Shown here: one piece after another, positions 2,251-52,534 of the stretch
How the letters are laid out: every line of letters begins with the position of its first letter
Position numbering within the stretch: position 1 is the stretch's first letter
Assembly (NCBI GenBank): GCA_004764695.1
Contig: SMSO01000032.1
Location: 1,386,501 to 1,450,500 of the forward strand
Length of the DNA stretch: 64,000 bases
Origin: Schizochytrium sp. TIO01
Taxonomy: Eukaryota; Sar; Bigyra; Thraustochytrida; Thraustochytriidae
Direction of reading: 5' to 3'
Notes under the pieces: model-generated
What the model saw: the letters and a program-made list of their open reading frames with translations, nothing else
Told to the model about the DNA's origin: nothing
Database searches by the model: none
Translations under genes and position numbers: made by a program

Positions 2251-3630
2251 ATGGTGAAGAGCTCTGGAGTTGCTTTGATCACCGCAGTTTTGGCTGCTTT
2301 CACTCCTCAAGCTATAGCAGAACGTTGGGCTGTGCTTGTGTGTGGCTCTCGCGGATACTTTAACTACCGCCACCATGCCGATGTTTGCCATGCGTATCAT
2401 AGTCTGCGTGCTCGCGGAATTCCTGACGATCGAATCATTACAATGATGTATGATGATGTTGCAAGTAGTAGGCTTAACCCGTTTCCGGGTCAGCTGTTCA
2501 ATCGTCCTAACACTGACGACGGCGTTGGCTCAATTGATGTATATAAGGACTGCAAGAAAGATTACACGCGGGGACACGTTACACCTAACAACTTTCTTCA
2601 TGTGATTGAGGGCAACTCTGAATTTACCTTTGGTCGCCCGGTTCTCAATTCTACTGAAGATGATGATGTATTTATCAACTTTGTTGATCATGGCGCCCCA
2701 AACCTAGTGGCCTTTCCCACTGGTGAACTGTACGCACGTCAGCTGATGAGCACAATCGAGCGCATGCGTGAAAAGCGTATGTTCCGCAATTTGGTGTTCT
2801 ATATGGAAGCCTGTGAGTCAGGTAGTATGTTTGCAGATCTTCCTTCGGACATGAACGTCTGGGCTGTCTCGGCTGCGAACGCACATGAATCCTCGTTTGC
2901 AACCTACTGTCCTCCCAAGGGCGACCTTGTAAACGGTGTACATTTAAACACTTGCCTTGGCGACCAATTCAGTGTCAACTGGATGGAAGACACCGACGCA
3001 GAGCTTGACGGCCAGAAGGAAACTCTGATTCAACAATACACCCGTGTTCAGAACAAGACTACTAAGAGTCATGTATTAGACTTTGGAGATCTTGTTGCCA
3101 TGTCTAAAGACGAAATCGATGAGTTCCTTGGAGCACCTGCGCCTGGTGGACGTCTTCGAGTGTTGCCGCGTCTCCCGAAGGAGATGACGGACTCACAAGT
3201 GGATTCCCGCGATGTTTCGCTTGTCTCAAAGTTTTACATGTACACTCGTAACCCTACTGAAGAAAATGCGGCTCAACTTCAGGCTGAAATGCACCATCGT
3301 CGCAATGTCGACAATATCTTTAGTCAGATTGCTGTGGAGCTCCTTGATGATCCACGTGAGGTTCAACAAATGCTTGGCGCCAGTGGTGTTGAATATGCTC
3401 AAGAACATGATTGCCACCGTGCTGCTAACAACGCGTTCAAGAACGCTTGCATTGAAGATCGCTCCTGGACAGACTATTCAATCAAATACTCTGCTACTCT
3501 CCAGTCTCTCTGTGAGCGCTATTCTGGCAAGGGTACTTACAAGGTGATTGAGGCCATTCATCGTGTATGTGGTGCGGTGGCGTCTAAAAGTGAAGCTGGT
3601 ATCGCCGTGGCTACGCTTGCATTGGAGTAG
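2251..3630 (+). CDS. Legumain-like asparaginyl endopeptidase (peptidase C13)
   Basis: A 459-residue protein, close to the usual length of legumain. Legumains cleave after Asn (and Asp) in lysosomes or vacuoles and mature other proteins. The N-terminus (residues 1-23) is a signal peptide ending near AIA. The catalytic domain starts ERWAVLVCGSRGYFNYRHHADVCHAY, the hallmark of the family. The catalytic His is His147 in NFVDHGAPN and the nucleophile Cys188 in MEACESGSMF. The C-terminal part (about 330-459) corresponds to the legumain stabilisation/pro-domain, with paired Cys around 406-443. Two NxS/T sites are visible (Asn133, Asn268). The start is the first ATG after the signal-peptide frame opens and sits in a favourable context (gaccATGg). 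The missing C-terminal membrane anchor and the legumain-type pro-domain argue against the related GPI8 transamidase. It converges on the WASP gene with a 237-bp gap. Confidence 0.95.
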   Translation: MVKSSGVALITAVLAAFTPQAIAERWAVLVCGSRGYFNYRHHADVCHAYHSLRARGIPDDRIITMMYDDVASSRLNPFPGQLFNRPNTDDGVGSIDVYKDCKKDYTRGHVTPNNFLHVIEGNSEFTFGRPVLNSTEDDDVFINFVDHGAPNLVAFPTGELYARQLMSTIERMREKRMFRNLVFYMEACESGSMFADLPSDMNVWAVSAANAHESSFATYCPPKGDLVNGVHLNTCLGDQFSVNWMEDTDAELDGQKETLIQQYTRVQNKTTKSHVLDFGDLVAMSKDEIDEFLGAPAPGGRLRVLPRLPKEMTDSQVDSRDVSLVSKFYMYTRNPTEENAAQLQAEMHHRRNVDNIFSQIAVELLDDPREVQQMLGASGVEYAQEHDCHRAANNAFKNACIEDRSWTDYSIKYSATLQSLCERYSGKGTYKVIEAIHRVCGAVASKSEAGIAVATLALE

Positions 3631-3867: not shown

Positions 3868-5970
3868 TTAATGCCAATCATCGTCAGAAGCGTCATCAAC
3901 TCCAGCGTGCTGCTCCTCTTGAGTAATTTGCTTACGCCGTTCAAGTACACAAGACTTAAGCATGTCTAATAGCGAGTCCTGCGCATTTTGATTTTTACCA
4001 TCAAGATCAGGTAAAGACTCAACTTCGCTGTTATGACGTAAACGAACGATCCCGGCTTCAATTTCACTAAGAAACGCTGGACGAAACTTAGCTGTTTGTG
4101 TTTTCGGAGGTGGGGGTTTAGATTTTCGAAGCTTGACTTGCCCCAGTGCAATGTCCTGCAGGAAAGCAGGTTGAGGTTTGTCATCAATTGACCTGGAAGA
4201 AACTCCGCCCCTTTCAGAAAAGGAAGGCTTAATACTGATATCTTGACCTGCTTCTTTCTGCTCAGTCTCATTATTAAACTTCCTCATAATTGTATTTTGA
4301 CGTAGTGGCGGCGGTGGTTTGACAGTGGATATGGGCGTTGGCTTTGGGTGGGGTACAGGTGGTTTGGGGTAGCCTGTTTTAACCGGTTGCTGAGTTGTGG
4401 ATACCTTGCCTTCCGTGTTATTCTGAAAGCTTTCATTTGTTTTCTTTAGCAATGGTCTTGGGGGGCGAAGCGGTGGATTACTTTGTGAGTCTATTTCTCT
4501 CCCTTGAAAAGCTTGCTCAGCTACATGCGGAGGTGGTGGGGGTGGTTGTTCTAGAGGTGTTGAGGGCAATTCATCCGGTGGGGGTGGAGGAGGCGGAATT
4601 GATCCTAATTCGTCTTGCCACTGTTTCGGTCCTGAAAATGGCGATACATCTTTCATTTCATGACTTGATTTCCCCTCAGTTATATCTGAGGAGTGGTTAC
4701 TCCTATTCTTAGTTGGGCGTCTCCTTGAATCTGAGTGGGTAGTTCTATTGCTATTTGGTGATTGAGAACGTATGGGCAGTTTTGTATCTGTCTTCTTTCT
4801 ATTTACCACCATTGGGTTCATATGCAACTCAATAGGCTCGAGGTCGTTCTCTGATTCTTTACTTAAAGATTTAATGCTCGCATCACAAACATCTGACCGA
4901 GGGTTCATAAAGAAAATTTGTTCTCTTTGTTGTTGCAGACGAATCTGTTCAGCAACGAACTCTTGCGACGTCGTGGGGCCACGAGAGGGATACTTTGCAT
5001 TCTCATGTAACACTTTCGAGTAAGTCTGCGACACGGTACGTTTCCTAGTCTCTAATCCAGCACATTTGACTGCTTCTCGAATACGGGCTTTCATTTTGGG
5101 ATCAGCTAGATCCTGACTTGTAAGTCCAGCTTGCTGAAAGAGAGTTCTCCACTCTGGCGAAATGTTGGTAAAGTCTAAGGATCCATCTTGGTTAACTCCA
5201 ACATGAATATTACGCACAATACTCGTCACATGACTAATCTGTCGAGGTTCCTCGTGATTACTGGCTGGGGCGGCTCTAATGGGAACAGTGGATGCCTTGA
5301 ACGACGGTTGGCTTTTCGTTGGCTTCTGTGGTGTTTGCTGCTCCATGTTTTTAGATTTGTGCGATTTATTAGAAGATCTTTTGGTGAAGAATGAAGATAG
5401 AGTCCGGGACGAGCCTTTACGTTCACTCGGCTCACGAGTCTTCCTGGTTCGCATAGATCTTGAGGTTTGTTTTGGTGCAGGGGCCATTCCAGGTGATGGT
5501 TTGAGGCATTCACTCTTTACCTTTGCTCCATGTTTTGAGCGAGGTAAGAGACCTATCACTTTATAGTAAAACCGTTTAGCTTCCTCTCCGTTGGCAAAAT
5601 TGATTCCAGCAACACAATCATCCAGTTCGAAAGCGTGAAAAGTTGGCTCCAGTTCAAGATACTCGAGATTTAAGTAAGTTTCGAATTGGAATCGCAACAC
5701 GTGTCCGACAACATCATATATTTGAATCAAACACGTATCCATATCACGATCAACTACAAACACGACTGCACCAGCTACTCTAGTGTACACCCAGCCATCT
5801 TTGCACTGCAGGATATCTGGAAACTGGTTAACGATTGGGGAATGTTTACCAGCGAGAATATCCTTCGAAGGACTCGAAAGGAAGAGCTGTCCAATTGCCC
5901 CGCCCACGATGGTGCGGTGCGGGCCCACATTGCGACCAAGTTCTGCAAGTTCTTGCTTGGAGAGCGACAT
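3868..5970 (-). CDS. WASP/N-WASP-like Arp2/3 activator
   Basis: A 700-residue protein with the complete WASP order. Residues about 40-145 form a WH1/EVH1 domain (FPDILQCKDGWVY, IQIYDVVGH, FHAFELDD, GINFANGEEAKRFY). Residues about 246-302 form a CRIB/GTPase-binding region (ISHVTSIVRNIHVG, DFTNISPEWRTLFQQAGL), the site where Cdc42/Rac would relieve autoinhibition. A proline-rich segment at 459-565 has runs of six or seven Pro, suited to profilin and SH3 binding. Two WH2 actin-binding motifs follow (PAFLQDIALGQVKLRK near 601-616; PAFLSEIEAGIVRLR near 631-645). Next come a central helix (DSLLDMLKSCVLERRK, 665-680) and an acidic tail with the penultimate Trp699 (DDASDDDWH) that contacts Arp2/3. 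The ATG at 5970 is used; a GTG one codon upstream is in frame but unlikely. The gene is uninterrupted and diverges from the methyltransferase gene. Confidence 0.94.
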   Translation of the reverse strand: MSLSKQELAELGRNVGPHRTIVGGAIGQLFLSSPSKDILAGKHSPIVNQFPDILQCKDGWVYTRVAGAVVFVVDRDMDTCLIQIYDVVGHVLRFQFETYLNLEYLELEPTFHAFELDDCVAGINFANGEEAKRFYYKVIGLLPRSKHGAKVKSECLKPSPGMAPAPKQTSRSMRTRKTREPSERKGSSRTLSSFFTKRSSNKSHKSKNMEQQTPQKPTKSQPSFKASTVPIRAAPASNHEEPRQISHVTSIVRNIHVGVNQDGSLDFTNISPEWRTLFQQAGLTSQDLADPKMKARIREAVKCAGLETRKRTVSQTYSKVLHENAKYPSRGPTTSQEFVAEQIRLQQQREQIFFMNPRSDVCDASIKSLSKESENDLEPIELHMNPMVVNRKKTDTKLPIRSQSPNSNRTTHSDSRRRPTKNRSNHSSDITEGKSSHEMKDVSPFSGPKQWQDELGSIPPPPPPPDELPSTPLEQPPPPPPHVAEQAFQGREIDSQSNPPLRPPRPLLKKTNESFQNNTEGKVSTTQQPVKTGYPKPPVPHPKPTPISTVKPPPPLRQNTIMRKFNNETEQKEAGQDISIKPSFSERGGVSSRSIDDKPQPAFLQDIALGQVKLRKSKPPPPKTQTAKFRPAFLSEIEAGIVRLRHNSEVESLPDLDGKNQNAQDSLLDMLKSCVLERRKQITQEEQHAGVDDASDDDWH

Positions 5971-6588
5971 CACACATTGACGCTGTGCAGGGAGTAGAGC
6001 GGAGTAGCCAGCAACCTACTCAACTCCTTCGTCGCTTTTGCAAATTCTATATGAATTTACATATATAGCCGGGCAGGAAAGGCTCTTCTACGGGAACACC
6101 ACTGATCTTCACGCTTAATCGCCTGAGGCCTTCCACTGAGAGCCTAAAATTTTTAATCCTTAGCAAGATTATCAAGAGCGTGCAATTGCAAGCGTCCAAG
6201 ATGCACTTGTTGTAGTATGCCAGAAGTTCCGTTGAGAACGCTTACTCGTATCGCCCTGGTTAGCTCAATGTCTATCAATAGTCCTACTCCCTTAGCCAAG
6301 CAAAAGATCTCGGTCGTAGCGCGACGTATATTTAATTTAATTTAATTTATTTTATTCCTTTTCTTCAAAACTTTATTTTGACTCTTCTTGCTTTTCCATT
6401 TGCATCAATTATCCTTGATCACTGGTTTCCCATCGTTTTATGTTTCATCCCTGAAACGCCTTGCGGAGCCCTGTTCTTGTTCGTGCACATACACGAGTTA
6501 GCACTCCCCGCGCTGGTGTGAGGGATCTCGAGACAAACCCGTTTGTGGTCTATCATACGCCACTGAGACAGGAGCAGTGTAGAAGAGA
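5971..6588. promoter_or_regulatory. Divergent promoter region between WASP and methyltransferase genes
   Basis: These 618 bp separate two genes read in opposite directions, so they must hold both 5' flanks. A TATATA-containing stretch lies near 6058-6068, about 90 bp upstream of the WASP start. A short (TTTAA)n run lies at about 6331-6353. No open frame here is convincing. Exact transcription starts cannot be read from the sequence. Confidence 0.4.
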
Positions 6589-7938: not shown

Positions 7939-9739
7939 TTATTCGTCACTGCACGACACAGCATCAGCGCGACACTGCGTCTTACACGCCTTGTATTCAG
8001 TACGGCTGAGAAGGCTGGAGCAGCTTTCTTCAATGCAGGTGTCCACCTCAATTTTGCATGTAAGAGCAGCTTCAAGCTTGTCAGCGCACGTTCCGAGGCT
8101 ATCAGCATTCTCGCTCAGACAAGATATACATTCCTCAGCAGTAGTGCTGTTGAAGCTCCTACGCATGTCACAGACACTGCAGGTTTCTACAATCTCCGTA
8201 GCACAAGTAGAGTTCACACCAGGGATCTTTACCTTGTTATGCTTTCCAAGATGACGCCCTTTGCCATGACCGCTGCCGGTAGAGTTGTGGCTGCCTGTGA
8301 AATTATGGTGTCCCCCCAAATTGGAGGAATCATCGTCATCAACAGTTTGATTACCATGTCCTCCAAACTTGCCAAGGTTACGGCCCTTGCCATGGCCAGG
8401 GCTAGTGGTAGAGTTGTGGCCTTCAGTAGCGTTATGGTAGTGATCAGGCAGATCGGTGGCGTTGTGAGTCATGTTGAAACCATGATGAGCATCGCCATTG
8501 TTACGAAGGTGGCGCCCCTTGCCATGTCCATGGCCAGTTGAGTTGTGGCTTCCGGTATAGTTGTGGCTTCCGGTGTAGTTGTGGTCAGGCAGGACGGTGG
8601 CGTTGGGGTAGTGGTCAGGCAGATCGGTAGCGTTATGGGTCATGTTGAAACCATGGTGAGCACCGCCATTGTTACGAAGGTGGCGCCCCTTGCCATGTCC
8701 ATGGCCAGTTGAGTTGTGGCTGCCAGTAAAGTTGTGGCTGCCAGTGAAGTTGTGGCCCTCAGTAGCGTTGTGGTAATGATCAGGCAGATCGGTAGCGTTG
8801 TGAGTCATGTTGAAACCATGGTGAGCACCGCCATTGTTACGAAGGTGGCGTCCCTTGCCATGTCCATGGCCAGTTGAGTTGTGGCTGCCAGTAAAGTTGT
8901 GGCTGCCAGTGAAGTTGTGGCTGCCAGTGAAGTTGTGGCTGCCAGTGAAGTTGTGGCTGCCAGTGAAGTTGTGGCTGCCAGTGAAGTTGTGGTAATGATC
9001 AGGCAGATCAGTGGCATTATGAGTCATATTGAAACCGTGGTGAGCACCGCCATTTTTACGAAGGTGACGACCATAGTTAGAATCGGAGCCATGACCATTG
9101 GAGCTTCCTCCATGGCCTCCATCTTGGCTACCATTGTCCAACGACGTACAAGAAGTAGCATTTGCACGACACTCACTTTTGCACATGGCAAGCTGCACAC
9201 CGTCAAAGCCCAGACACAAAGTGTCAACACAGTCTGCAAGCTCAGTCGCACACGAAAGCTTGTCAACAAGGGCGTCAGTGCAGCCAGCAAGGCTGTCTGC
9301 ATTCTCCAAGAGGCATTCAAGGCAGGTTGCTGCATTAGTTGAGTTCATATCCTTGACCTCGCAAGTTTCACATGTATCAATTATCTCTTGGGCGCAAGTA
9401 GTGTTAACTCCAGATGGAACATGGCCTCCAATTGTTTTGTTAGGGCACGATGTTGCATTCTGGTAGCACTCTTGAGCACACGAGAGGACTCGACCGTTGC
9501 CGGGGAGACTCTTGCAGCTCTCTTCCATACATGTTTCGACCTCTACGAAACACTCGACCTCGGCAAGCTGATCTTCAACACAGTCGCCGAGGTCATCAAT
9601 ATTATTTTCGAGACAGTCTACGCAATCCTCCCAGTTAGTCAGATTTGCGTAATGGTGGAAGGTGCAGACATCACCACAAACCTCTTCGACAAGCTCAATG
9701 CAGGTGTTATTTCCAGTTGAAGGCATACCAGAGCCGTGG

Positions 9740-9770
<31 letters not shown>

Positions 9771-9990
9771 CGTGGCCAGAGCTTGGGCCTCCAAAGTTGT
9801 TGCCTCCATTATTACCTCCTGTATTTCCATTCGAAGGAGTGGAACCTCCAAAGTTGTTGCCTCCGTGCTGCTGATTACCACCATCATTGGTAGGGCCGGA
9901 GGATTGGAATCCACCGCTTGACCGAGCTTCTGCTGAGCTCGCAGCACTTGCTGCAAGGACCGCCAAGGCCCACAAGGTCTTGATTTGCAT
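7939..9990 (-). CDS. Large secreted cysteine-rich, Asn/His-rich repeat glycoprotein with three 12-Cys modules
   Basis: A 683-residue protein of unrecognised family. Residues 1-23 are a clear signal peptide (MQIKTLWALAVLAASAASSA). Residues 24-92 are Gly/Asn/Ser-rich, ending in a GS repeat. Two cysteine modules follow (Cys97-Cys182 and Cys199-Cys281) and a third closes the protein (Cys596-Cys680); each has 12 Cys with nearly fixed spacing and begins right after an NxT sequon. Between them, residues 308-582 are tandem repeats of about 55-73 residues starting RHLR(K/N)NGGAHHGFNMTHNATD, with nested HNFTGS units. The repeat region is packed with NxS/T sites, implying dense N-glycosylation, and is rich in His. 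There is no membrane segment or GPI signal, so a secreted, wall or extracellular-matrix role is inferred. The ATG at 9990 is chosen because the signal peptide begins there; an upstream in-frame TTG is not needed. Confidence 0.87.
8245..9069 (-). repeat. Coding tandem repeats (four RHLR-led units) in the glycoprotein gene
   Basis: Units begin at residues 308, 381, 436 and 493 with RHLR followed by K/N and NG, then AHHGFNMTHNATDLPDHY, and end in STGHGHGKG or a variant. The unit copies are very similar at the DNA level, suggesting recent expansion or gene conversion. A degenerate fifth stretch runs to RHLGKH at residue 579. Confidence 0.9.
8878..8988 (-). repeat. 18-bp coding minisatellite (HNFTGS)n
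   Basis: Six head-to-tail copies of an 18-bp unit encode HNFTGS (residues 335-370), each with an NFT glycosylation sequon, followed by a diverged HNSTG copy. Shorter versions of the same array recur inside the other large repeats. Confidence 0.92.
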
Positions 9991-11928
9991 GGTTGGTCTT
10001 TTAAGCTCTGACAATCTCAGGTAATTAGGTTTTGCTTATACAGGTTCTTGAATTTTTCTACCTTGAACTCCGTATCAAATTCTGCCCAAGTTTTATCAAG
10101 GGACTATGCAAGCAAGCAAGCAAGCAAAGCCCGCCAGCCAGCCAGAAAGCCAACTAATTAAATTTCTTCGTTTCGACTTGGCCGAGTTTGGTGTTTGTTG
10201 GAGTTCGGGTTTTGTTTGTTTCCTCGCGCTCTGTTCCTCCATTTTTTTTTTTTAAATAATCATTTTTTATTTTTTTAAAGTTCCTCCTTAAGAGCCGCAT
10301 CTCTTTCTTCCGTCGCTTTTGCGCCCTCTCTTGCTATCTCCTGCAGCGCGTGAATCCTCTAAAAACCCGGAATTGCGTTAGGTTCTTCCTCCCTCTACTA
10401 CGAAATCATACTCTAGAGGTATATTATATGTTATATAACACTTGTTTCTACCTTTTTCGTTTTTTTTATTAAAATTTTAAAGATGATTAAAAACTTTTAA
10501 GAGCCTTGAAGAATTCCAGCATCGGCACTCTTGTGTAAACCAGCCAGCACTCCCTTTGCCCGACCCTAGCTTCTTTCCCTCGCGCAGCCTCATACCTCGC
10601 CCGTCCCTGCATCAATTACAGAGGTGGTCGGATAAGCCGCAGTCCGATTTGATTCTTGCGCTGCCAGCAGGCCTTCATTCGGAGCCACTTTCTCTCAACT
10701 CGCCAAGGACGGAGCCTTCTCCTTCTTTCTCTCTTCCTTCGCAAATAACTCGTCTCTTCAACAACTCCCTTATCTAACCGTAGATAAATGTTACAGTCGT
10801 TTTGTTTTATTTCATCTTATTCTATTTCAAATGTTATTCCAAAGTATCAAAACTTAAAAAAACAAAATGTTTTAAAAACAAACAAATACTTTATTCAAAC
10901 TCCAAAGAGCCTGCGTGACACCCACGGTAGGTCTCCACTGAAAATATCGCTCCCGGCTTCAGGGGGGGGGGGGCAGCAGCCGCCTTGCGATCATGAGGGG
11001 ACTCATGGCATGCGTCTTGAGGTGTTCCGAAGGTGCTGTAACTTAGGAAGAGAGGAAGTAAACGAGGAGGAAGCAGGTGCTATCTATGGCGCTAGCCAAC
11101 TGCTAGGCCGTTCCAGCTTGTTGGCAAATGCTGTTTCTTCTCTGCGTTTTGGCGAATCGGTTTCGTGGTTCATGATTTGGCGGTGGAGTTGGAAACGAGG
11201 AATTGGAAACGTGGATTTGCGCGACGTCTAAAGAGTCGCGCAAATTGATCATCTTCCGCCCGCGAGGGTCTACCCGCAGCCACAGCAGACAATCGATTTT
11301 CAATGAATCAATCATTCACTGCATGTCATCCGAAGAGATCGATCGAGCTTCGAGCTTCTTTGTCCTTCTGCACCGTAGCTTGGTCCCAGAACTGATGGTC
11401 AATCAATCGACCACTCTCGTTCCCAATCTCTTCCTCAAAGTTTGTGCCGCTGACACACATTCGTGTTCACATACACATAAAAATACACATACACAGACAG
11501 ACATCGGGCGCGTCTAGAGCATGGATTGGCCAGCCAAGAGTCCTGGGCGGCGAATACCTCAAATCCGCGAGAGGAGGCTTGAGATGGTGGCGAGAGAGTC
11601 GTTCGAGATCTCAAGTACCTGCAGGCAGCCATGTAAGTAAGTAAGGTAAGTAAGTAAGTCGCCTCGCTTGAGCTGCGAGCGTCCAACTTTAACGTCACAT
11701 CTCCGCTGCCAACGCGGGAAAGCCAACAACCCAAACGCGGCGCAGCTCAGCGGCAGATCAACTGTCTATCCTATCTCTCAATCTCTCTCTATCTCTATGT
11801 ACAACCATTGCTCCGCACTGCATTCTGAATTCTGCCTCCGGAACTCTTTTTCCAAGAAAAACACAGCTTCTTGGAAGAAAAAAAAAAAAACAAAAAACCT
11901 TTTTCGTAAAGATAGATAGATAGATAGA

Positions 11929-11963
<35 letters not shown>

Positions 11964-14900
11964 ATACGCATAGATCACCTCTATCTAACCAATCAGAAGT
12001 CCGGGAGGCAAATAAACAGAAGAATGGCAAAGCATCACTCATAACGCACGTTGACCGAAGTCATCTGAAGTATCGTATCCCGTTCTTCTCAGTTTAGAAT
12101 CCTATCCATCTGGTTCAGCTTACCGGAGGCTCTTCACAACCGAGACGAGTCTTTACACTCGTGCCCTCGTCATCAGCGGTGATTATCACTCACTGCCGTC
12201 GTGGTCCGAGCTCTCTGAGCCTTCTTCGCGCTCTTCTTCTCTGCTATGCTTGGCCTTCGTTCTTGCTCGCACCGGCTTAACAAGGCACGCAGCCGTGAGG
12301 AGGCCACCGCGGCCTCTATCTCTGGTTTTCATTTATTCATGGCGCGCGAGCGGAGGTTTCCGGTGGAGTGCAACAATAATCCGAAGTTCTTCTTGTAAGA
12401 GCGAATCCTCAGTTAGTTAGTTAGTTAGTTCGTCCATTTGTCTATGAATTCGTTCTTATCGATGGGTTCATGAACGAATGAGGAGAGAGTGAACTGCGAT
12501 GGGTGCTCCTCTGCTGTGTCCATCGCCACCACTTTGGCATCGACTTGAGACTTTTAGCTCGAACAGTATCCTGCCGCCAGGCATCTTTGCCTCGAGATTT
12601 CTCCTAATTCAAGTCGGTCAAGGCAGTCGGCACTCCTCTATCTGTTTGTTCTTCATCTCCGCACTCATGCAGCAACAGCTTTCGCTATCTGTTGTTGTTG
12701 TTGTTGCTGTTGTTGCCGTGGTTGTTGCCGTGGTTGTCGGCTAAGGACAAGGAAGGGTGGATTTCTGGCCAACTGGAAACAGACATTTATTCATAAAGGA
12801 AGCATTTCTGTACCCAAAGCCCCAAATCTTATTGAGAAATCCCTCCTGCGACTCATTGATTGATTGATTGATTCATTGATTGATTCATTGGCTCCATGCA
12901 AATCCGTGTTCCAATATGTTCATTCCTCATCCCGTACCATTCCATGCTCTTACTACCTACACATGCATCCGCTCCGCTGCCTTCTATCCTCTCGGCTACT
13001 CTTCTCCTACGAGTCCTTCCCCTGGAACACCTGGATCGCCAGTTCATGCACAGAGCCCGCCGAACTCAGTTGCTCCTGACAGACACGCCACTCCCACCCT
13101 CGGCCTGTTCTTCCCCTTGGGGTGACGGCGCGCTAAGAGGTCCTAGGCAGCTCGCTTTCCAGGTTCTCGCAAACTAACCCCTCTTCGGGTTCCCCTCCGC
13201 TGCTTTCGGAGCTTTGGTCTCTTTTTATTTAGTTTTACAAACAAATGACTTTTTATTTCCAATTAATTAATTAATTACTTACTTATAAATAGATAAATAA
13301 ATAAATAAATATAAATACCAATTTTAAAAAATGAAGTAAAGATAGAGATGAAGGAAGATAAGAGGAGATAGATAGATTGATTGACTGGAGAAAAGAAAAG
13401 GAAAGAATCTCTCTCGGTTCGCTTCATGAGTTTGTTTCTGACCTTCTTCGGGTTTCGAGCTTCGTTGCAAAGTGAGTTCGAGCGAACGATGTGAAGGCGT
13501 GCAAGGGGGAGAGGGAGGGCTTTCTATCGAGCTCAGCTGCAGCTGTTCTGAATATGGGCCTGGAAATGCATAAATAAATAAATCCAAAGCTCAAGAACTC
13601 AACTTCTTTCCCTTTCCCGCACATCCTCGGAGTCGTTTGAGACTCTCTCTCTCTCTCTCTCTCTCTCTGTGAGTGAGTATGTGTGTGTGCGTTTTTGTCT
13701 CATGCATCATCGTCTTTTCAAGAGCGCCGAATTCTCGCCAGCAAAGCTTTGCATTTGCGGGCGGTGGAGCAAAGCCTGCGTCAACGGGAACCCTGCGCAG
13801 GCGGCGTCTCGGTCTCTGGGTGGGTCGTCTCTGCCGACGTCGCGCCGATGAGATGACAGTTCCTGCTCCTTGCCGGGCTGGCGGAGCTGCAAGGGCGGAG
13901 CCGCCGTCAGCTCAGAAGAACGAACTGCAAGATGCGCTGGAGAAAGGCCACTAAGTCCACCCGCGAGATATTCTCTGCGCTGCCGATGCTTCAAGAACGA
14001 ACGATGGAGAGAGAGAGAGAGAAAGAGAACCTCTGCGCGCTCCTTGCCTGAGTGCATCCGTAAGCGGGCGGTGGACCTGAGAAGGAGGGCTTAGCAAGTG
14101 CAATCTGCTCTTCTTTCGTCGTCGCTCAGGGCCTTTGGCTGCAGGCATACCTGCGAACTTGCCTTGGAAACTGTGCTGCTTTGATAACGATGAGAGATGG
14201 GATAGATATTCCATCGAGCTGTTACGAACTGATTCATGAGCGAGTTTGTGCCCAGAAAGCCTGAGGGAGATCTATCTCGCTCCGCATATGCAGTGCGGCC
14301 TCGAGAAGACCAGTGCGAAGGTGGTTCTATCGAATTTGCGGCGTGCACTCGTGTGAACGTCTTCAGTTCAAAGTCGCCTTGCTATCAACCGATCCAAACT
14401 ATATGCATACGTGAGACGAAGCGAATTATGTCTTGTCAACCCTCGTGAACAAGGGCGCCACAGCCAGGGCAGTTCAGGACTCTCTTTGTGCTTGCTCTCA
14501 AGCCGAGCTGTCTCCTGTTTCCGTGGCTCTGGAACTCGTGGAACCTTTGGGTTCAGGCATAGAATATCCCGCGCCTAATGAACAGCAAGTTCCAAACCTG
14601 TCCAACTATCGAATCAACGCTATGATGAAAACGACCGCAAGGCTTGATTCCCCAAACACGAGCGTCAGCCAGCATTAATAGTTATCGAGCCGGTCAGTCG
14701 TGGCCGACGAGAACACTGAAGCGAATGGATTATAAGAAGTTTGTCTCAACTAATCAACCGAAGAATAGTTATAATTATAAGCAATTCTTGACTTACAGCG
14801 ACCCCAACTACTTTGTACAACCCAAACATTATGTCTGTATCACACTACTCTTCCGCTCGCCTCCATTCCTCAACTGATTACTGCAGACCATTTGGAGGCC
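9991..14900. other. Gene-free microsatellite-rich intergenic region
   Basis: No convincing coding region. A TATA-like TATAAGC (minus strand) at about 10034-10041 lies some 50 bp upstream of the glycoprotein start. Simple repeats include CAAG (10108-10128), a 12-base G run (10962-10973), GTAA (11633-11659), GTTA (12411-12430), GTT/GCT (12690-12740), TTGA/TTCA (12855-12890), AATT/AATA (13261-13312) and CT (13643-13668). Open frames here are low-complexity and overlap on both strands. Confidence 0.6.
11911..11966. repeat. GATA/AATA tetranucleotide array
   Basis: About 4 GATA units pass directly into about 10 AATA units, a compound microsatellite with a single-base unit change. Confidence 0.95.
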
Positions 14901-15050
14901 TCATGGAGAAAGTGTCAACATTGTTCAACTCCAAAACATCCCGCCCCTTTACTTTCCTCGCATCTGCGTAAACAAACATCATTATCGCGCCTGCACCATC
15001 TCTCTCTTTTACCCGCGGCTTTGCATCCGATCGTCCATCTCTAGCGCGTA

Positions 15051-15094
15051 TTTATTCATTCATTTATTCATTCATTCATTCATTCATTCATTCT
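15051..15094. repeat. ATTC tetranucleotide array
   Basis: Roughly ten ATTC units. The same motif, or its complement GAAT, recurs at 48750-48771, 54367-54401, 54456-54478 and 54900-54952. Confidence 0.93.
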
Positions 15095-15290
15095 CTGAAA
15101 ATTGCTCCGCGTGGTTTTGTGAAAGACCTTTTGCATGCGCAGGTGGGGACAGGCTTAACCTGTCCAGGTCGGAGAAGTGATTGCCAGAGAAAAAAAGAAG
15201 AATCTGTCAAGGCAGTACTAAAGTATTGGTTAAATGCGGCTAGTATGGCCAAGTGACTCAATCCTGGGTCCTGTAGATGGAATAGATGGA

Positions 15291-15339
15291 ATGCCAATTG
15301 CTGTAGAAAAGCATTGGCGTGGCCTACAGCAATTGGCAT
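15291..15339. repeat. Perfect 16-bp inverted repeat (hairpin)
   Basis: The arm 15291-15306 (ATGCCAATTGCTGTAG) pairs perfectly with 15324-15339 across a 17-base loop. It lies about 700 bp upstream of the hAT remnant. It could be a piece of a small transposon or a structured transcript; nothing decides between these. Confidence 0.8.
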
Positions 15340-16007
15340 GGCCTACTATGAGGCCTCTATTCGATGGGAAGACAGAAGTTTTGGAAGAACCACGGTGGAC
15401 ATTACATAATTTTGAGCGAGCAATATTTCAAGTATCGCGAGGCAACGCAGATTGTTGGAGGCTGGCTATAAGCCACAAAAACTCTTTCCACAAGTGAAAG
15501 AAGTGCCATGATGGGCTTTGGACACTACCGAGTACTATCTTTAAAATCAAAATCAGGCTTGCATTGAGTCTAGTAGAAAGTTAACTCACCATAAGGTATA
15601 CCTTCTCATACATACTATGTCCTGAAACTCGTTGAACCGTTACCACCTGAGTCGGAAAATGCTCCCGGACTTTCTTAAAGTTGAGAAATATGCACAAACA
15701 TCTGAAACCACCACCGAAATACAAGCTGCACATTATTCAGGTACCGAGAGGCTCGAGCAAAACTTACTCCATGAGCTGGCAACTTGCTCTCTGAAGGTCT
15801 GCGGTAAAGAGGAAAGTGATGACGCTTTAGGTTTGTTAGAACGCACATCTATGCCTTTTGGTATGTGTGCCTGTTGCTCAATAGCGAGCGCGTGTATGCT
15901 ATGCTCCCTTTCCAGAAGAGAAACGGACAATCTGGTAGGTTGGCGACTAAGTGTGCCATATGTGCAAATGAAATGATACATCATTCCCGAAAGTTTTTCA
16001 AGCAAGT

Positions 16008-16225
16008 ATGCCCAAAAGTGACTACTCCATATACAAAGACTCGAAGAGCCATGCCTCTATATGGAGTTGCCTAATGTTAAGCCTTCTTGCACTGTTTGCG
16101 TGCACATATTTGCAAACGCAGTTTCCCCCTTCAAGTAAACGAGTATTCTCTGCAGGTGCTCCTTCTTCCCCGCCAAGATCACTAGGAATTTACCAGATAC
16201 TAATAATCTGTTTCTTTAGAAAGAT
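16008..16225 (+). pseudogene. Decayed hAT transposase C-terminus (dimerisation region)
   Basis: The frame starting at 16008 reads SIWSCLMLSLLALFACTYLQ and then FPPSSKRVFSAG (ending at 16155). This matches the hAT C-terminal signature, in which a short W...P.L..LA...L segment is followed by PxSSxxSERVFSxAG. After SAG the match continues in another frame with AKITRNLPDTNNLFL (16172-16216), equivalent to the usual RxxLxPDxxxxLxFLK segment, then meets a stop. One frameshift and a stop therefore show it is dead. Upstream sequence back to about 14900 may hold more of the element in unreadable form; a CxxC stretch near 15948 could be part of a BED finger but this is weak. No terminal inverted repeats were identified. 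Confidence 0.55.
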
Positions 16226-16299
16226 TCAGGGAAATCAAGGCGTGGGACAATTTATATATGCCGGCACAACAAACAAAGCTCTCGTTGCTGTCTGAAATG

Positions 16300-18408
16300 C
16301 ATTATGAACGCCAATGCTAATGATCAGGCAAATTGCCTTGCATTTAGCTTCTACATACCTACAAAGCATGACCTTATACTCATGCAAGCCAGGGATAATC
16401 TCTGCTCTTTGATCATGTGCTGTTGTGTAATGTTTCAAGAGTTCTAAACTAATGGAGAAAACGTTTCCCCGCTCTTTTCAATATGAATTGGTCGGGTGTT
16501 CATATGTATTCACATTTATGGGTTGAACTCAGTTTGAGACAAATACCGTGGCTTTGTTCAAAGTGCAAGATAACAGGAGCATTTCACCATACAACATATT
16601 TGGTTTTATCGCAATTAATTGCGCTACAATGATGTCTGAAATATGGAAAAGGTGCCAGCTACTGCTAATTCCATGTTGGCAACCTATTTATTCTGAAAGC
16701 CGAAGTTGATGTTTTCGGATGTGCTTGTGTAGATATTTTGTAGGAATCTGATACATCGTCCTCTGGCTCTATAATAAAATTCAACCATTAATGCTTGAAA
16801 ACGCATAAGAAAAGAACCTTTGTTCATACGCTTAGGTATGTGACTGTTATATGTGATGTTATTTATCTCGCCAGACTTTAGAACTGAGCTTATCAGTGAT
16901 TTTCAACAGGAACATCGTCCAAATATTCGTAAAACAGAACCAACCTTTGGACTACAGATGTACCTTCGAATTGCAACTTATCGTCTCGTGATGTACATCT
17001 GGGTAGGTAGTCACTCACTCCTGATTCGCGAGACAGATCACCACTCATGAACGTTGAGCATGCTTCAAGCGAAGAAGCTTGGAAAACGAAGCATTTGACA
17101 AGGCACATTGCCGCGTCAATTTAGTCTTTGGCTCATCTTGTAAGATTTTCCGAATAGGTACAGGGGACTATCTGAGGATGGATGGATGGAAGGAAGAGCT
17201 CTAAATGTACACCATCTAAAGGTTGTGCTCAGTATGGCGCAGCCTTTTCCGAACAATTACACTTCCCGCTCTTCCGGCGAATCCGTTTCAAATCCGTGCA
17301 TAGCCGATGCTCTGCAAAAGTGTAGACTTTCTGAACAAAATGGAGAATGGCACATCAAATTGATGCAGTTCTCAAACGAACCTTAAGCATAACTTGCACG
17401 TGGTCAGTCAAGATCCCCCACTACAGGAGCTCTTATAAAAAGGTCTTGACAAAGAAACTTGCGATCTTCCCTTACTCAAGCACGTGTTATACACAGCTAT
17501 ATACAAGAGCCTGCCAGTCTCCGAACCACTTTGAAAGAGGCAGCGTTTCTCTACGGACTATGCCTTCATTTGGAAATGAGTTTTCGAATGAAGCCTCTGA
17601 AACACCCCAGTGCGAACAGCACTTCCAGGCACTATGGTAGTGCAGGCGCAAAATATTGGTTACGATTACCAGGCTGGTTTCGCCGCTCGCACTCCACATC
17701 ATTCTCCACTTCCCTCGTGTAAGTAGGAAATAGGTATTCCCAGGAGAATGCCAATGCTTCGTGAATACCTTACCAACAGACGCTCGCTCATGCCTAGAAT
17801 TCAAAGGCGTTACAAGTGACCTTGCACCGGAGTAGGAAATGCCGACATGGTTACAAGACCTGCGTTCTTTTATTGGAGCGCTGCGCTAGAGCTCACGAGA
17901 CTGCGGAAGCTCATACACGATCTCGAGGCTGGTTTCACAGTGAGGTGTCCACGGAAAGGGAGTGTTGGTCACAAGAGACGACAACGGGAGGGTTCGCTTT
18001 TTAGATTGGCCACATATGCACGATGCAGGCTGACCACATCACAAGTCGCATCGCCAAGTCAGGTTCCACGATTGAAATGACTGAAACAGATTGCGAGATC
18101 TTCCCAGGGCAAATTTTTGATGGGGCACAAGTGAAATCATACCTCATATGGCAGGATACAAGGGAATAGTGAAACGAAGGCACTGACTGATTGAGCAAGA
18201 TGGTCACGTGTACAAGGTTATGTATGATAAAACAAACGTGAAGAAGAAGCCAATGAATGACCAAAAGATTGTGAGTCGACTTATGTTCTGTTATATAGAT
18301 GGGCGCGATCAAATTACAGGTTGCATTGGATGGGGGATAAATCATGGTTGTGCGTGCTTAAGAGGCCCGTCTGAAGGGTGTGGATGGGGTTGGGGTGCTA
18401 GTTTACCA
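16300..18408. other. Intergenic region without recognisable genes
   Basis: Few microsatellites. Short open frames at 16853-17722 on both strands have no family motif and no shared frame. It probably contains more mobile-element debris continuous with the hAT remnant. Confidence 0.4.
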
Positions 18409-19302
18409 TTAGTTTCCGCGAAGACGGCGCTCAGAGCCAGTAGAGTAACTGTCAGTGGTGGAGTAGCCATCGCCGTCACAGTAGAGAGACTCACAGGCGT
18501 ATCCACAGGTAGAGTCCCAAGAGGTGGAGTTCATGCAGGTGGTGAGAAGGCACTCAACAAGGTCGTCCTCACTGCAGTCGCTGGAGCCGAAGCAGACGTC
18601 GAAAGAGTCATCCTGCTCGTCGAGGCAGTCACCACAGGCATCCATGTCATCAACAGTGGTGGCGTTGAGGCAGGATCCACAGGAGGTAGCAACAACCTCC
18701 TCAACGCAGGTGAGGTTGACACTGGAGGATCCGAGAGCGTCAGTGCGGTTGGAGGCAAGGGAGCTGTTGGTGTAGTTGGAGATGATCTCCTCAGCCTTGG
18801 TGCTCTCGTAGAGGTCCTCGTCCATGTCGCCGTCATCAAAGATCATGGCCGGGCAAGAGGATGTGTTGGCAATGCAAATGTTCACGCAGGTGTCAGCCTC
18901 GTCCCACTCGGTGGTGTTGCAGTTAGCAAGCACGCAGTCGGAGGCACCGTTGAAGCAGGCTTCGTCAATGGTGGTGGTGTTGATGCAGCTGAAGAAGGTG
19001 TCACGGTTGTTGTCGAGGCAGCTAAGACAGTCTCCGAGAAGAGCATCCTCCTGGAGGCAGGCATCAGAGCAGTTGTTGAGGAGAGCTGACTCGATACAGC
19101 TGGTGTTCCAGAACTCACTGGTGTCGTAAAGCTCCTCGTCAGAGGCCTCGAGCAAGCGAGTGTAGTTGGTGTAGTTGGAGTAGACTCCACCACAGTCGGT
19201 GGCGTTAGTGGAGTTCATGGCGCAGTCCAAATAGTAAGCCTGGACGCTGTGCACCATCTGGGTGAGGGCCACGACGGCGGCGAGTGCGAAGAACTTGGTC
19301 AT
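18409..19302 (-). CDS. Secreted cysteine-rich glycoprotein with two 12-Cys modules
   Basis: A 297-residue protein of unrecognised family. A signal peptide occupies residues 1-22 (MTKFFALAAVVALTQMVHSV then QA). Two cysteine modules run Cys69-Cys150 and Cys199-Cys275, each starting directly after an NxS/T sequon, with the same 12-Cys spacing as the three modules of the larger glycoprotein 8.4 kb away on the same strand. The linker (151-195) is acidic and Ser/Asn-rich with more sequons. The C-terminus ends in a Ser/Thr-rich tail and a basic ERRLRGN. There is no membrane segment. Codons are strongly biased to C and G in third position, unlike the channel gene, which suggests high expression. A long open frame on the opposite strand (18208-19089) is an artefact of this bias. 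The two genes look like relatives from an old duplication with different repeat gain. Confidence 0.87.
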   Translation of the reverse strand: MTKFFALAAVVALTQMVHSVQAYYLDCAMNSTNATDCGGVYSNYTNYTRLLEASDEELYDTSEFWNTSCIESALLNNCSDACLQEDALLGDCLSCLDNNRDTFFSCINTTTIDEACFNGASDCVLANCNTTEWDEADTCVNICIANTSSCPAMIFDDGDMDEDLYESTKAEEIISNYTNSSLASNRTDALGSSSVNLTCVEEVVATSCGSCLNATTVDDMDACGDCLDEQDDSFDVCFGSSDCSEDDLVECLLTTCMNSTSWDSTCGYACESLYCDGDGYSTTDSYSTGSERRLRGN

Positions 19303-36333: not shown

Positions 36334-39270
36334 ATGCAGCGCGCAAGGCAGCAATTGAGCGAGTCTATGAAATCTAATCGCGACAAAAGAAAGACTTCAG
36401 ATATGAGCTGGAAATCACATAGCGCAAAACTCAAAAACTTCTCTATTCGAAGCGGCAAGGCAAGTGTTGCACCATGTCCTGAAGGTACTAGTTCTACCTC
36501 ATCTGCTTCTATGAAACTTCCAAACCTTACGGAGAGTAGAATCGCAAAACTACGTGTGCCAAATACTGAAGATGATCAAGGCTCAGAGCATTTATCGTGG
36601 ATTCATGATGTTCCACAGCGAATCGCAACACAGAAGAGAATTGAGATTCAAGATGAGATTGAGCGCACTAGAAAACGGGTAGATGAAATCTATCGAAATG
36701 TGGATTTTCGGGTGAATCCATCTACCAAAGTGATGCGTTCTTGGAACGCCCTTATCTTTCTCACATTAGTATTCACCGCAACTTGGACCCCTTTTGAGGT
36801 CTCATTCCTCAAAATTGGTATTGATGGACGGTTCGTGCTGAATCGTTTTATTGATACATTCCTAATTGTGGACTTCTTTTTGCAGTTTGTCACTTGCTAC
36901 CAGGACCCCGTTACAGGCGTTTGGATTCGAGACTCCAAGTCAATATTTATACACTACGCTTCGGGTCGACTTATTTTCGATGCTCTTGCTTCGTTCGGGT
37001 GTCTAATATTTGACATGACAGCTTTGTATGGTACATTTCACACCAGTGGAGCTGATGATGGAGGCATTCACACAAACGAACTTCTCGCCACTGGGCGATT
37101 ATTAAGACTATTAAGTTTAATACGTTTTCCCAAGCTCTCGAGCGATACGTTCGAGTACTTTCACTTTCTCCGAGGTGATCAGTGGACATATAATAGACTT
37201 AGCTTGCTCAAATTTCTCTTTATTATTCTCTCGCTGGTACACTGGATGGCTTGTGTCTGGCGTCTTATTACAAAGTTCGAGCAGCATACTGATAATAACT
37301 TTCAAGAAACGTGGATTGTCAGAGAGGATCTCCTTTCAGCAGATCCAGTAGACCAGTATGTTGTTTGCGTGTATTGGGCCAGCACAACAATTACGACAAT
37401 TGGTTACGGTGATATTGCAAATCCAGGTACCGAGCTAGAACGTTTTATTGCAGTCCTAACAATGTTAATGGGGGCGTTAGTATGGGCGCGCATTATTGGT
37501 GGCATTACTTCGATTGTTTCTGCATTCAATATTCAAGACTTGGAGTTCTCAGAACAAATGGATCGCTTGAATGCCTATATGGAGTCTAAGCACATGCCTA
37601 CTGATCTTCGGCATCGCCTTCGAAGATATTTCCGTGCGCGGAGACAAATGGAACAGGATAACTCCTATGCAAGCCTCCTGGAAAAAATGTCTCCTGCGCT
37701 TCGAGGCGAAGTTGCTCGCACTGTGAGTCGTGAATGGCTTGCTCGTGTGCCCTGGTTAAATGTAGGTTCACTAGGTTTTATTGCCTCGGTGGCTATTGCT
37801 CTCGAGCACGAGCTGTATGCTCCAAAAGAGCTTATTATGGGAAGCCAGCTACGTGTGCTCACACGTGGTGTAGTCGCTCGTAATTCCCGTATTTTCACTC
37901 GTGGAAGTGTCTGGGGTATTGATATGATTGTTGCATCTGATGCTTTACGCGACAAAAAACCATCCAGAGCATTAACTTATGCACAGGTCCTGTGTCTCCA
38001 GCAAGATGCTTTGGAGGAGCTTTTGGAGGTTTATCCACATGAACGTGCACGAATTCGTGCTACAGCTTTGTGGATTGCACTTCGTAAAAGTTTTACAAAA
38101 TATGCTGCCAAGTTGCGAATTGGACGGAAAGTGATGCACCAAATAGCTAGTGATGCAGATCGCCTCGGCGTTGACGTTGCAGAGGTCTTTAAGAAGCATG
38201 ATATGCGAGGCAGAGACGAGCTTAATGAAGATGAATTTCTCTCAGCGCTTCGAGTCCTAGGCTATTGTGGACCTGCGAGCCTTATTACTGTTATGATTAG
38301 CCGTTTCGACAAAAATGGAGATGGCTCTGTAGATTATCGTGAGTTCGTTTCCTATTTCATGCGGGATTTTGCCAACGAACGAATGTCAATGGTAAGTGAA
38401 GATGTAAGAAAACGCCACGAACACAAGGGGTTCGTTGATCGAGCGCAGATGTTAGCTCTTCGTGAGCAGCAAATATTCGCAAAGGGCGAGCCTTTGGGCC
38501 AAGGCTACGAAAATCTTCCAATATTAGAAAGCGAGATAGAGGAGGAGCAACAAGACATGGTTTCTAGAATGCCATCAGCACGTAGCGAACTGAGTCGAGA
38601 TGTGATGCACCGCTCCCAACGTGGGCAAGAGAGCTGGTTTAGTGATGACGATGATGATCATGCACATAATATTGTGGTTGTACAACGTAAAAAAACAGCT
38701 ACAGGTAAAATCAAAGGTGCTGCCCGTCCAGCTGAACCATCTCATGCAGGGAATGGAGGTGGCTACAGCCAGTCTGCGTACCGAGGTAACGTGGTTCGAA
38801 CACAGGCAATGAATCCCCAAAGCCACCAAGGTTCTCCTAATTCAATTGCTCCAGCAAAGGTTAATAGCCCAGTGGAATCCGAGCAGCAACGATCAATGTC
38901 AGCGAACGCAAATATGATCACTATGTCACTCTTTGAGAAAGACGCCAATTCTCGTCGATTCAGTCCTAGTTTTCGCGCAGACTCACTATTTATTGAAAAC
39001 CAATCTAGCACATTACAATCATTTCGAGGCCAATCATCTCCTGTACTGAGCATGACAGGTGAGGAGGTTGAAGCTCTTATGGAAAAGAAACTTGCAGGTT
39101 TTCAAAATGAAATTCTGGAAAATATGAAGCGTCTTCTTAGCGGACCACAGGTTCAGACTCAAACACCAAGGGCGAGCATGCTTCAGTCTTCAGTGAATGG
39201 AGATGGTGAGTATGTAAGCCTCACACAGGATGTAGCTATGGATCATTCTTTACCATCGGATTGTCCCTAA
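36334..39270 (+). CDS. CNBD-type voltage-gated potassium channel with C-terminal EF hands
   Basis: A 978-residue membrane protein. The transmembrane core begins with S1 at about 135-158 and S2 at 168-188, followed by S3 and an S4 (about 253-268, LLATGRLLRLLSLIRFPKL) with few positive charges. S5 lies at 290-310. The pore helix and filter are YWASTTITTIGYGD (347-360), a K+-selective signature, and S6 runs 368-398. A C-linker with the usual helices (406-470) and a cyclic-nucleotide-binding homology domain (about 475-568) follow. In that domain the Gly-Glu that binds the nucleotide appears as WGI (527-529), so binding is doubtful. Residues 613-676 carry two EF hands: the first is degenerate, the second (DKNGDGSVDYRE, 659-670) is canonical for Ca2+. 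The last 300 residues are disordered, ending in a short helix. The first ATG of the long frame is used. Confidence 0.95.
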   Translation: MQRARQQLSESMKSNRDKRKTSDMSWKSHSAKLKNFSIRSGKASVAPCPEGTSSTSSASMKLPNLTESRIAKLRVPNTEDDQGSEHLSWIHDVPQRIATQKRIEIQDEIERTRKRVDEIYRNVDFRVNPSTKVMRSWNALIFLTLVFTATWTPFEVSFLKIGIDGRFVLNRFIDTFLIVDFFLQFVTCYQDPVTGVWIRDSKSIFIHYASGRLIFDALASFGCLIFDMTALYGTFHTSGADDGGIHTNELLATGRLLRLLSLIRFPKLSSDTFEYFHFLRGDQWTYNRLSLLKFLFIILSLVHWMACVWRLITKFEQHTDNNFQETWIVREDLLSADPVDQYVVCVYWASTTITTIGYGDIANPGTELERFIAVLTMLMGALVWARIIGGITSIVSAFNIQDLEFSEQMDRLNAYMESKHMPTDLRHRLRRYFRARRQMEQDNSYASLLEKMSPALRGEVARTVSREWLARVPWLNVGSLGFIASVAIALEHELYAPKELIMGSQLRVLTRGVVARNSRIFTRGSVWGIDMIVASDALRDKKPSRALTYAQVLCLQQDALEELLEVYPHERARIRATALWIALRKSFTKYAAKLRIGRKVMHQIASDADRLGVDVAEVFKKHDMRGRDELNEDEFLSALRVLGYCGPASLITVMISRFDKNGDGSVDYREFVSYFMRDFANERMSMVSEDVRKRHEHKGFVDRAQMLALREQQIFAKGEPLGQGYENLPILESEIEEEQQDMVSRMPSARSELSRDVMHRSQRGQESWFSDDDDDHAHNIVVVQRKKTATGKIKGAARPAEPSHAGNGGGYSQSAYRGNVVRTQAMNPQSHQGSPNSIAPAKVNSPVESEQQRSMSANANMITMSLFEKDANSRRFSPSFRADSLFIENQSSTLQSFRGQSSPVLSMTGEEVEALMEKKLAGFQNEILENMKRLLSGPQVQTQTPRASMLQSSVNGDGEYVSLTQDVAMDHSLPSDCP

Positions 39271-50500: not shown

Positions 50501-52290
50501 CGAAACCAGCTTCAAACTGCCAATCTACTGCATCATTCTCCTCTGCTTTAAATTACTTATCAAATAAACATGAATGAATGAATTAACGCAGCGAATGAAT
50601 AGCAGCCATATAGCACTTTGCTATGACTTACTAGCACGTGAGTAGGAGGACCCGGGAGCAATGACAACAATAATGATAATAATAATAAAATAAACAACAT
50701 TTCTAATTTTCCTTTTTTAAATAGACAGGATAAGTTCTATGGTTTGAAGCACAGAATTCACTCCTGTCTGCGAAACTACACCTTCACGTGAACTTCTATT
50801 TCGCGGAGTTATTCGCACGATTGGAGAAGGCAGCGCATTACGAGGGTTTGCTGGGTTGATCCATACGTCAGAATAACTCATATACTTCGCTCACACAGAG
50901 GTTTTTCGGGTGGTTTTCTTACTATTCTGATTTCTTGTTTTCTTCGAAGTTTACGGAGTTGCGAAGAAAAGGAAGAATACCATAAAGGGATGGAAGACAG
51001 AGAGAGCGAGCCACAGAATTCACTTCTTCAGCATTGCCAGTGGAGACAAGGGTAGACTCCAGGTTCTTTATCCAAATCAATTCCCCGTTTCTCTTATTCA
51101 CACTGTCTCCAGATGTCTCAGTGCGATACACACACAAACAAAAAAATAAATCTTCAAAACTTTCCTCACAAGTTTGAATATATGCTCTCTTCTCACCTAA
51201 AAATTACAGACCGGTAGACTAGGAAATGTGCAGAGTTGTATAGAGGAGTATCCACTGAAGTCCGAACTGGTCTGGGCATGCAATCAGTTTCTCCAGTGTT
51301 GTTAGGTCTTGATGACTATTTGAGACTACTTAAAAAAGGGCGTTCTGAAGTCAGTGGGCGCTGGCTGCTCGCTCACTTTTTTATTTTCGGAAAATCATAC
51401 ACTAGGCGACAAACCCTGAGCTTTTGTCTATTCAACACTGATCTTTATGTCTCCCCCAAAGGTGTAAAGCATCTCCTCTCGGAGAAATTATCGAGATATG
51501 TGAAGGTAAGTTCACTCAGTCTGAACAACACTGAAGCAAACTTTAGCAGTGATCTTGAAGTGCCTCTCTCGGGGATATAGGATTGACACCCCATCACGGG
51601 AAGCGTGGCCATCATCATCAAAGGTTAGAGGTGAAAAAAACAATAACCTAAAGTGCAATTTCCCTGTTTAAAAATAAATTATTATATATTTATCTATTAT
51701 TATCATTTATCTTTAGTTTTATTTTAAGACGTAACCTTTTCAAACTAAAAATGTTTTTTTGTTTTGTTTTTAGTTTGATCTTGGCGACCTAATATGTAGC
51801 CACTGTGGGAGTTCTTTATTCCTTTTCCCCACGCAGAAGCGCACGGGTCCTCACAATGCTACTGTGATCGCTGCGGTCTCACGGTGACCCCTCCACTGCG
51901 GGGAGTGTTGAGAGGGCACGGGACAGCAACTCTGCATCGTGCTCCTCAGTGTCCACTGGGACCTGCGAATGCGCCGGAAAGACAGCGTGAGCACTGACTC
52001 AACATTGGAAACAGGAGGTACTACCAATCGATCCTCCGCTGACTACTCCTTCGATACCTGTTACGTCTTTCAAGCGCAAGAGAATAACTTCCTTCATCAT
52101 CATCAGAAGGGCATCATTTGCGCATTCCACGGTCGGTTCTGGTTTCTTTGAGCTCTTACTCTTTCTTTTCCTTCCTTCCTTCAAGAAAGAAAGAAAGAAA
52201 AAAACATATCGCACGTTGCATTCAAACAAACAAACAACTGGAAACAAATAAATGAATGAATAAATCAATCGATCAATCTATCAAAAGAAT
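42877..52290. other. Long gene-free microsatellite-rich region
   Basis: No supported gene in about 9.4 kb. The first few hundred bases must hold the MYB promoter; no clear element is seen. Repeats include CAA (43547-43566), CT (45007-45031), GA (45396-45421), AAGC (45998-46018), AATT/AATG (46755-46797), AAAG (47521-47552) and AAATCG passing into AATG (48720-48771). Open frames are purine- or pyrimidine-rich and overlap on both strands. Confidence 0.6.
48327..48392. repeat. ACTC tetranucleotide array
   Basis: About 16 uninterrupted units. Confidence 0.95.
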
Positions 52291-52291
52291 T

Positions 52292-52534
52292 AAACAAACA
52301 AACAAACAAACAAACAAACAAACAAACAAACAAACAAACAAACAAACAAACAAACAAACAAACAAACAAACAAACAAACAAACAAACAAACAAACAAACA
52401 AACAAACAAACAAACAAACAAACAAACAAACAAACAAACAAACAAACAAACAAACAAACAAACAAACAAACAAACAAACAAACAAACAAACAAACAAACA
52501 AACAAACAAACAAACAAACAAACAAACAAACAAA
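52292..52534. repeat. CAAA tetranucleotide array, about 61 units
   Basis: A perfect array of about 243 bp, the longest microsatellite in the window. It reads as Asn-Lys-Gln-Thr or Val-Cys-Leu-Phe repeats, but these frames are not credible genes. Confidence 0.97.

Follow-up and report, generated by a model that had tools for sequence, protein, structure and literature searches.

The two genes and their products

Within the window, by which we mean the whole stretch of 64,000 nucleotides of Schizochytrium sp. TIO01 DNA that was analysed, two genes encode proteins that share a module with twelve cysteines. The first-pass annotation had placed both genes on the same strand, and both open reading frames (ORFs) indeed lie on the minus strand. 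The features of the two genes are the following.

7939..9990, minus strand: gene of protein 1, 683 aa from the ATG
9925..9990, minus strand: signal-peptide-like start of protein 1, about 22 aa, its end set by eye
9445..9711, minus strand: 12-Cys module 1 of protein 1, 107.7 bits against a profile made from the copies themselves
9148..9405, minus strand: 12-Cys module 2 of protein 1, from pattern and profile
8215..9147, minus strand: stalk of protein 1, 311 aa with 29 sequons, 52 His and no Cys
7951..8214, minus strand: 12-Cys module 3 of protein 1, from pattern and profile
18409..19302, minus strand: gene of protein 2, 297 aa
19237..19302, minus strand: signal-peptide-like start of protein 2, about 22 aa, its end set by eye
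18853..19107, minus strand: 12-Cys module 1 of protein 2, from pattern and structure model
18478..18717, minus strand: 12-Cys module 2 of protein 2, the most divergent copy, with Cys7 shifted by four residues

The open frame of protein 1 comprises 691 residues, with its own ATG at residue 9. The signal peptide is followed by a linker rich in Gly, Ser and Asn, by modules 1 and 2, by a stalk rich in sequons and His, and by module 3, which forms the very C-terminus. Protein 2 consists of a signal peptide, a short N-terminal segment with two Cys and an RLL tripeptide, modules 1 and 2, and a C-terminal RRLRGN. The signal peptides predicted earlier are supported, in that both N-terminal hydrophobic stretches pass a crude signal-peptide rule (passed by 7 of 53 ORFs of at least 150 aa). 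No transmembrane-like stretch follows the N-terminus in either protein (highest mean hydropathy 1.13 and 1.0). Both proteins are probably secreted. The intergenic region has no ORF of at least 150 aa wholly inside it; an intron-bearing gene is possible there.

Elsewhere, the window encodes a legumain-type C13 peptidase with a prodomain (2251-3630, plus strand; Pfam E 7.8e-95), a proline-rich protein with WH1 and P21-Rho-binding domains (3868-5973, minus strand; Pfam), whose frame starts with GTG and may be missing a 5′ exon, and an ion channel whose C-terminal part carries an EF-hand pair (36334-39270, plus strand; Pfam). A long simple repeat at 52265-52648 (minus strand), which reads (LFVC)n in one frame, is low-complexity DNA and probably no gene. 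Neither tRNAs nor Rfam RNAs were found in the window.

The twelve-cysteine module and its relatives

A cysteine-spacing pattern proposed in the first-pass annotation finds exactly the five copies claimed, three in protein 1 (residues 102-190, 204-289 and 601-688 of the 691-residue frame) and two in protein 2 (residues 66-150 and 196-275). Each copy is 80-89 aa long and contains twelve Cys. Gaps of 2, 10, 4 and 3 residues, said to be fixed, are kept in all five copies, and an N-x-[ST] sequon directly precedes Cys1 in every one, again as described before. Every one of the 36 Cys in protein 1, and 24 of the 26 in protein 2, lies in a module, and the modules are acidic (pI 4.05-4.33). Among 200,000 shuffled versions of protein 2 none fit the pattern, which was itself derived from these sequences.

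We then looked at likeness beyond the cysteines by scoring a profile of one protein's modules against the modules of the other, with 2000 full shuffles and 2000 Cys-keeping shuffles for reference. The protein-1 profile gave module 1 of protein 2 a score of 18.9 bits, which was reached by 0 full and 10 Cys-keeping shuffles, and module 2 a score of 4.2 bits, reached by 26 and 37, respectively. The protein-2 profile gave modules 1, 2 and 3 of protein 1 scores of 23.2, 14.1 and 13.0 bits. None of these was reached by a full shuffle (0 of 2000 each), and Cys-keeping shuffles reached them 4, 64 and 96 times in 2000. Because of the Cys-keeping counts, we grade the likeness beyond the Cys positions as strong for module 1 of protein 2 and module 1 of protein 1, and as weak for the other three modules, each at about 2-5 percent of shuffles. 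In pairwise BLASTP the two modules of protein 2 did not match each other significantly (E 0.16); module 2 of protein 2 matched the three protein-1 modules with single-pair E values of 0.008, 0.002 and 1.5e-4.

An AlphaFold2 model of module 1 of protein 2 is confident and helical (pLDDT 87.0, pTM 0.71), and a weaker model of module 1 of protein 1 has broadly similar helices (pLDDT 76.2, pTM 0.49); the two models are not independent, because the same five sequences were used for both. Nine of the twelve Cys lie within helices in the better model. The twelve Cys probably form six disulfides, as the first-pass annotation proposed. The displacement of Cys7 in module 2 of protein 2 amounts to about one helical turn in the equivalent of the third helix and, judged from the spacing, is compatible with the same helix face.

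To find further copies we searched the organism's own genome, a 64.06-Mb assembly of 37 contigs. With protein 2, modules 1 and 2 of protein 1, module 3 of protein 1, and module 1 of protein 2 as queries, only these two genes were recovered, beside one chance row (E 0.79) in a frame elsewhere in the genome that presumably encodes an aldehyde dehydrogenase. Distant genomic copies could be missed, because protein 1 was not recovered at E<=1 with protein 2 as the query. Over the window and the preceding 200 kb, a profile built from the five copies revealed no additional copy (next best E 0.17). The first-pass annotation had also proposed that the module spread by duplication. Duplication fits the adjacency of the genes, their common strand and the homology of the modules; the spread itself is modest, because searches of the genome with single sequences, which have a short reach, yielded two genes only. 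As a separate observation on this assembly, two large PUFA-synthase subunits with a pfaD-family domain are characteristic of thraustochytrids, and two open frames here, 2044 and 1647 residues long, contain this domain (673.7 and 671.8 bits).

Searches of family collections were likewise negative. The two whole proteins matched 0 families in Pfam (E<=1) and 0 in NCBIfam (E<=10), wall-protein families included. The five modules gave only two chance rows in Pfam (E 0.34 and 1.1, one module each), the latter to Tsg_N, and two chance rows only in PHROGs. A GAL4 row obtained with the module profile (E 0.042) was also taken as chance, GAL4 being a zinc cluster and the row being driven by cysteines. 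PDB sequences, queried with protein 2 and the module profile, contained no credible match, viral contigs queried with one module, protein 2, a three-module alignment and protein 1 contained no relative, and none of 43 pattern matches to one module in prokaryotic genome contigs was a relative. The searches of Pfam, NCBIfam (whole proteins) and PDB sequences thus gave no match, in line with the first-pass annotation, which had not recognised the spacing from a named family, and no significant match to a described family emerged. Among the open-licence papers listed as matches, hardly any of which name thraustochytrids, none concerned such a module in these organisms.

It is conceivable, if unlikely, that the module belongs to a known family of helical Cys-rich domains and has diverged too far for the single-sequence and shallow-profile searches to detect it. 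The alpha-hairpinins are helical hairpins of the form CxxxC-x(n)-CxxxC with Cys pairing 1-4 and 2-3. With helices 3-4 of the less confident model (module 1 of protein 1), the hairpin of alpha-hairpinins and vicilin-buried peptides gives a weak superposition. Lineage-restricted Cys-rich domains are common in secreted protist proteins, and this one may be lineage-specific, as the first-pass annotation proposed. The module itself is real and so far unnamed, and it looks like a new type of building block, of a kind familiar from surfaces and matrices.

The stalk of protein 1 and the RxL tripeptides

The DNA of the stalk (pI 8.26) contains a 165-bp tandem array of 3.1 copies, with an inner 18-bp array that encodes NFTGSH (6.9 copies at 97%). 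The length of the array likely differs between strains. Its N-glycosylation sequons suggest that the stalk is probably glycosylated, and no second occurrence of the stalk was found in the genome. The stalk and protein 2 also contain the following RxL tripeptides, which are candidate cleavage sites.

9061..9069, minus strand: RHL near the start of the stalk, from the sequence
8842..8850, minus strand: RHL at a unit boundary, from the sequence
8677..8685, minus strand: RHL at a unit boundary, from the sequence
8506..8514, minus strand: RHL at a unit boundary, from the sequence
8374..8382, minus strand: RNL at a unit boundary, from the sequence
8248..8256, minus strand: RHL shortly before module 3, from the sequence
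19150..19158, minus strand: RLL before module 1 of protein 2, from the sequence
18421..18429, minus strand: RRL three residues from the C-terminus of protein 2, from the sequence

The six RHL or RNL sites of the stalk thus stand near its start, at every unit boundary and shortly before module 3, and the last two keep GHGKGR[HN]L despite the divergence of the surrounding units. Six RxL were reached by 0 of 20,000 shuffles of the stalk, a count that overstates the case because the sites are in part duplicates of a single unit. Outside the modules of protein 2, the observed two RxL were reached by 812 of 20,000 shuffles. In protein 1 the stretch from the signal peptide to module 1 lacks an RxL; the first one is at residue 167, inside module 1.

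In passages of three sources, several diatom wall precursors carry RXL after the signal peptide and at the ends of repeat units (PMC4557024, PMC5525289, PMC5647440), and the last of these describes the role of RXL in processing as a hypothesis still to be proven (PMC5647440). In oomycetes, according to the part of the source concerned, cleavage of the RXLR motif takes place behind its Leu and precedes secretion; the site is near the signal peptide and does not lie in a structured region (PMC11754927). We found no open-licence paper on an RXL propeptide in secreted proteins of thraustochytrids.

We surveyed protease N-termini in the organism's own genome. All six subtilase N-termini examined (L042-L047, from 16 subtilase matches) have, as judged by eye, an RxL no more than about 20 residues from the signal-like start, followed in four by a second site, SRRGL; four of the six are not independent, because they are located in one cluster on contig C13, where several subtilase matches lie at about 697-768 kb. 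Among 20 N-termini of other proteases (10 of 28 trypsin, 7 of 13 C1 and 3 of 4 Asp matches), three (L049, L051, L067) have an RxL soon after a signal-like start, no more than a background of 8 RxL per 1000 residues would give. In seven of the 20 (L057, L059, L060, L061, L064, L066, L067) the first ATG is not directly followed by a signal-like stretch, and L067 was scored positive from an internal ATG. Three situations were left out of the count: an RxL within the signal-like stretch itself (L056, L063 and one of the two in L051), an RxL a long way from that stretch (L048, L062), and an RxL in a sequence that lacks such a stretch (L061, L066). Secreted-like ORFs, with proteins 1 and 2 counted among them, are only slightly richer in RxL than others (10.1 vs 8.0 per 1000 residues). 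With three of 20 non-subtilase proteases, and four of six subtilases from one cluster, RxL after signal peptides was rejected as a genome-wide rule. The legumain-type peptidase of the window has no RxL in its first 60 residues. Cleavage of protein 1 at RxL is a plausible hypothesis.

Two further observations concern proteases. A secreted-like reprolysin-family metalloprotease with 35 Cys, encoded about 47-50 kb before the window (L033:88-2691, minus strand), has an RRLDED site at residue 47, and eleven trypsin-family matches lie on one strand within about 41 kb of contig C33 (about 1.01-1.05 Mb).

Possible roles and comparison with known systems

The effective codon number of protein 2 (34.4) is the lowest among 36 mechanically called ORFs of at least 250 aa in 264 kb, and comes close to the value for the aldehyde-dehydrogenase-like frame (33.4). 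For protein 1, computed with the stalk left out, the number is unremarkable (51.6). The strong codon bias suggests that protein 2 is abundant.

The explanation we put first, while giving it slightly less than an even chance, is that disulfide-held beads build two secreted structural or adhesive glycoproteins of the wall or matrix, encoded by adjacent duplicated genes and equipped with RxL candidate cleavage sites. The module would be a compact, acidic, all-helical and rigid bead of about 80-90 residues, held by the probable six disulfides. The duplication of the adjacent genes would be ancient. Protein 1 would join two beads to a third by a long glycosylated spacer, the stalk rich in sequons and His, and protein 2 would be a short, probably abundant, two-bead protein. 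Both are most likely structural or adhesive parts of the wall or extracellular matrix; the first-pass annotation had proposed a role in wall, matrix or defence. The RxL between stalk units and beside modules might be cleaved to release beads and stalk peptides.

The His-rich stalk, together with the acidic modules, could also serve to bind Cu, Zn, Fe or Ca on the surface of the cell, with the modules as carriers; we regard such metal handling as an improbable main function. Still less probable are secreted defence, toxin-like or food-capture proteins whose stable modules act on other microbes, given the many sequons, the acidic charge, the strong codon bias of protein 2 and the fact that single-sequence searches found no large family in the genome. 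A bolder form of the wall or matrix explanation, which we consider doubtful, is that protein 1 is a secretory polyprotein that an RxL-specific protease of an old stramenopile pathway cuts into 12-Cys beads and glyco-histidine peptides, and that the bead has a novel helical disulfide fold. Such a protease has been proposed for diatom wall proteins and its action observed on oomycete RXLR proteins, and in this reading it would operate in thraustochytrids as well.

Little is known of the surface and ectoplasmic-net proteins of thraustochytrids, and a defined, taggable 12-Cys module is a concrete new candidate. A proteome study of Aurantiochytrium limacinum lists surface and ectoplasmic-net candidates, most of them without functional annotation by standard methods; in the portion of the article concerned the 12-Cys module is not described, and the word 'cysteine' occurs in the methods only (PMC12221091).

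Several known systems resemble parts of the two proteins. Oomycete RXLR processing, in another stramenopile group, involves cleavage after the Leu of RXLR ahead of secretion, but the site described there is close after the signal peptide (PMC11754927), whereas RHLR lies deep in the stalk here. Membership among RXLR effectors was rejected for protein 1, whose first RHLR is at residue 308, and protein 2, with RLL at residue 49 and RRLR at the C-terminus only, does not qualify either. Diatom pleuralins have wall modules that are arranged in tandem, rich in Cys and about 90 aa long (PMC4557024, in the part concerned). Compared by description, their PSCD domains are proline-rich, whereas Pro occurs once in protein 2 and sixteen times in the 691 residues of protein 1.

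Diatom frustulins, as the relevant part of PMC4557024 describes them, are also stramenopile glycoproteins that are secreted, contain several acidic domains rich in Cys and have RXL at repeat ends, but their ACR domain has about 50 aa, in contrast to 80-89 aa with 12 Cys here. The ACR hexapeptides CQGDCD and VPGCSG given in part of PMC4712521 are absent from both proteins, and membership was rejected with 0 occurrences of CxGDCD and VPGC in either. A tryptophan-rich domain is likewise missing, with 2 and 3 Trp in the two whole proteins; some frustulins are themselves low in Trp, at 4% (PMC4712521, same part). What is shared with frustulins is the signal peptide, the acidic Cys-rich domains and the RXL sites, which are general features only. 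Precursors of the silaffin and silacidin type have RXL ending individual repeat units (PMC4557024, in the part concerned), as the stalk does; their repeats are silica-associated, whereas the units here are rich in sequons and His, with cleavage sites that are candidates only. Cleavage at the RxL sites, should it occur, would mean that a single secretory protease system connects thraustochytrids with diatoms and oomycetes.
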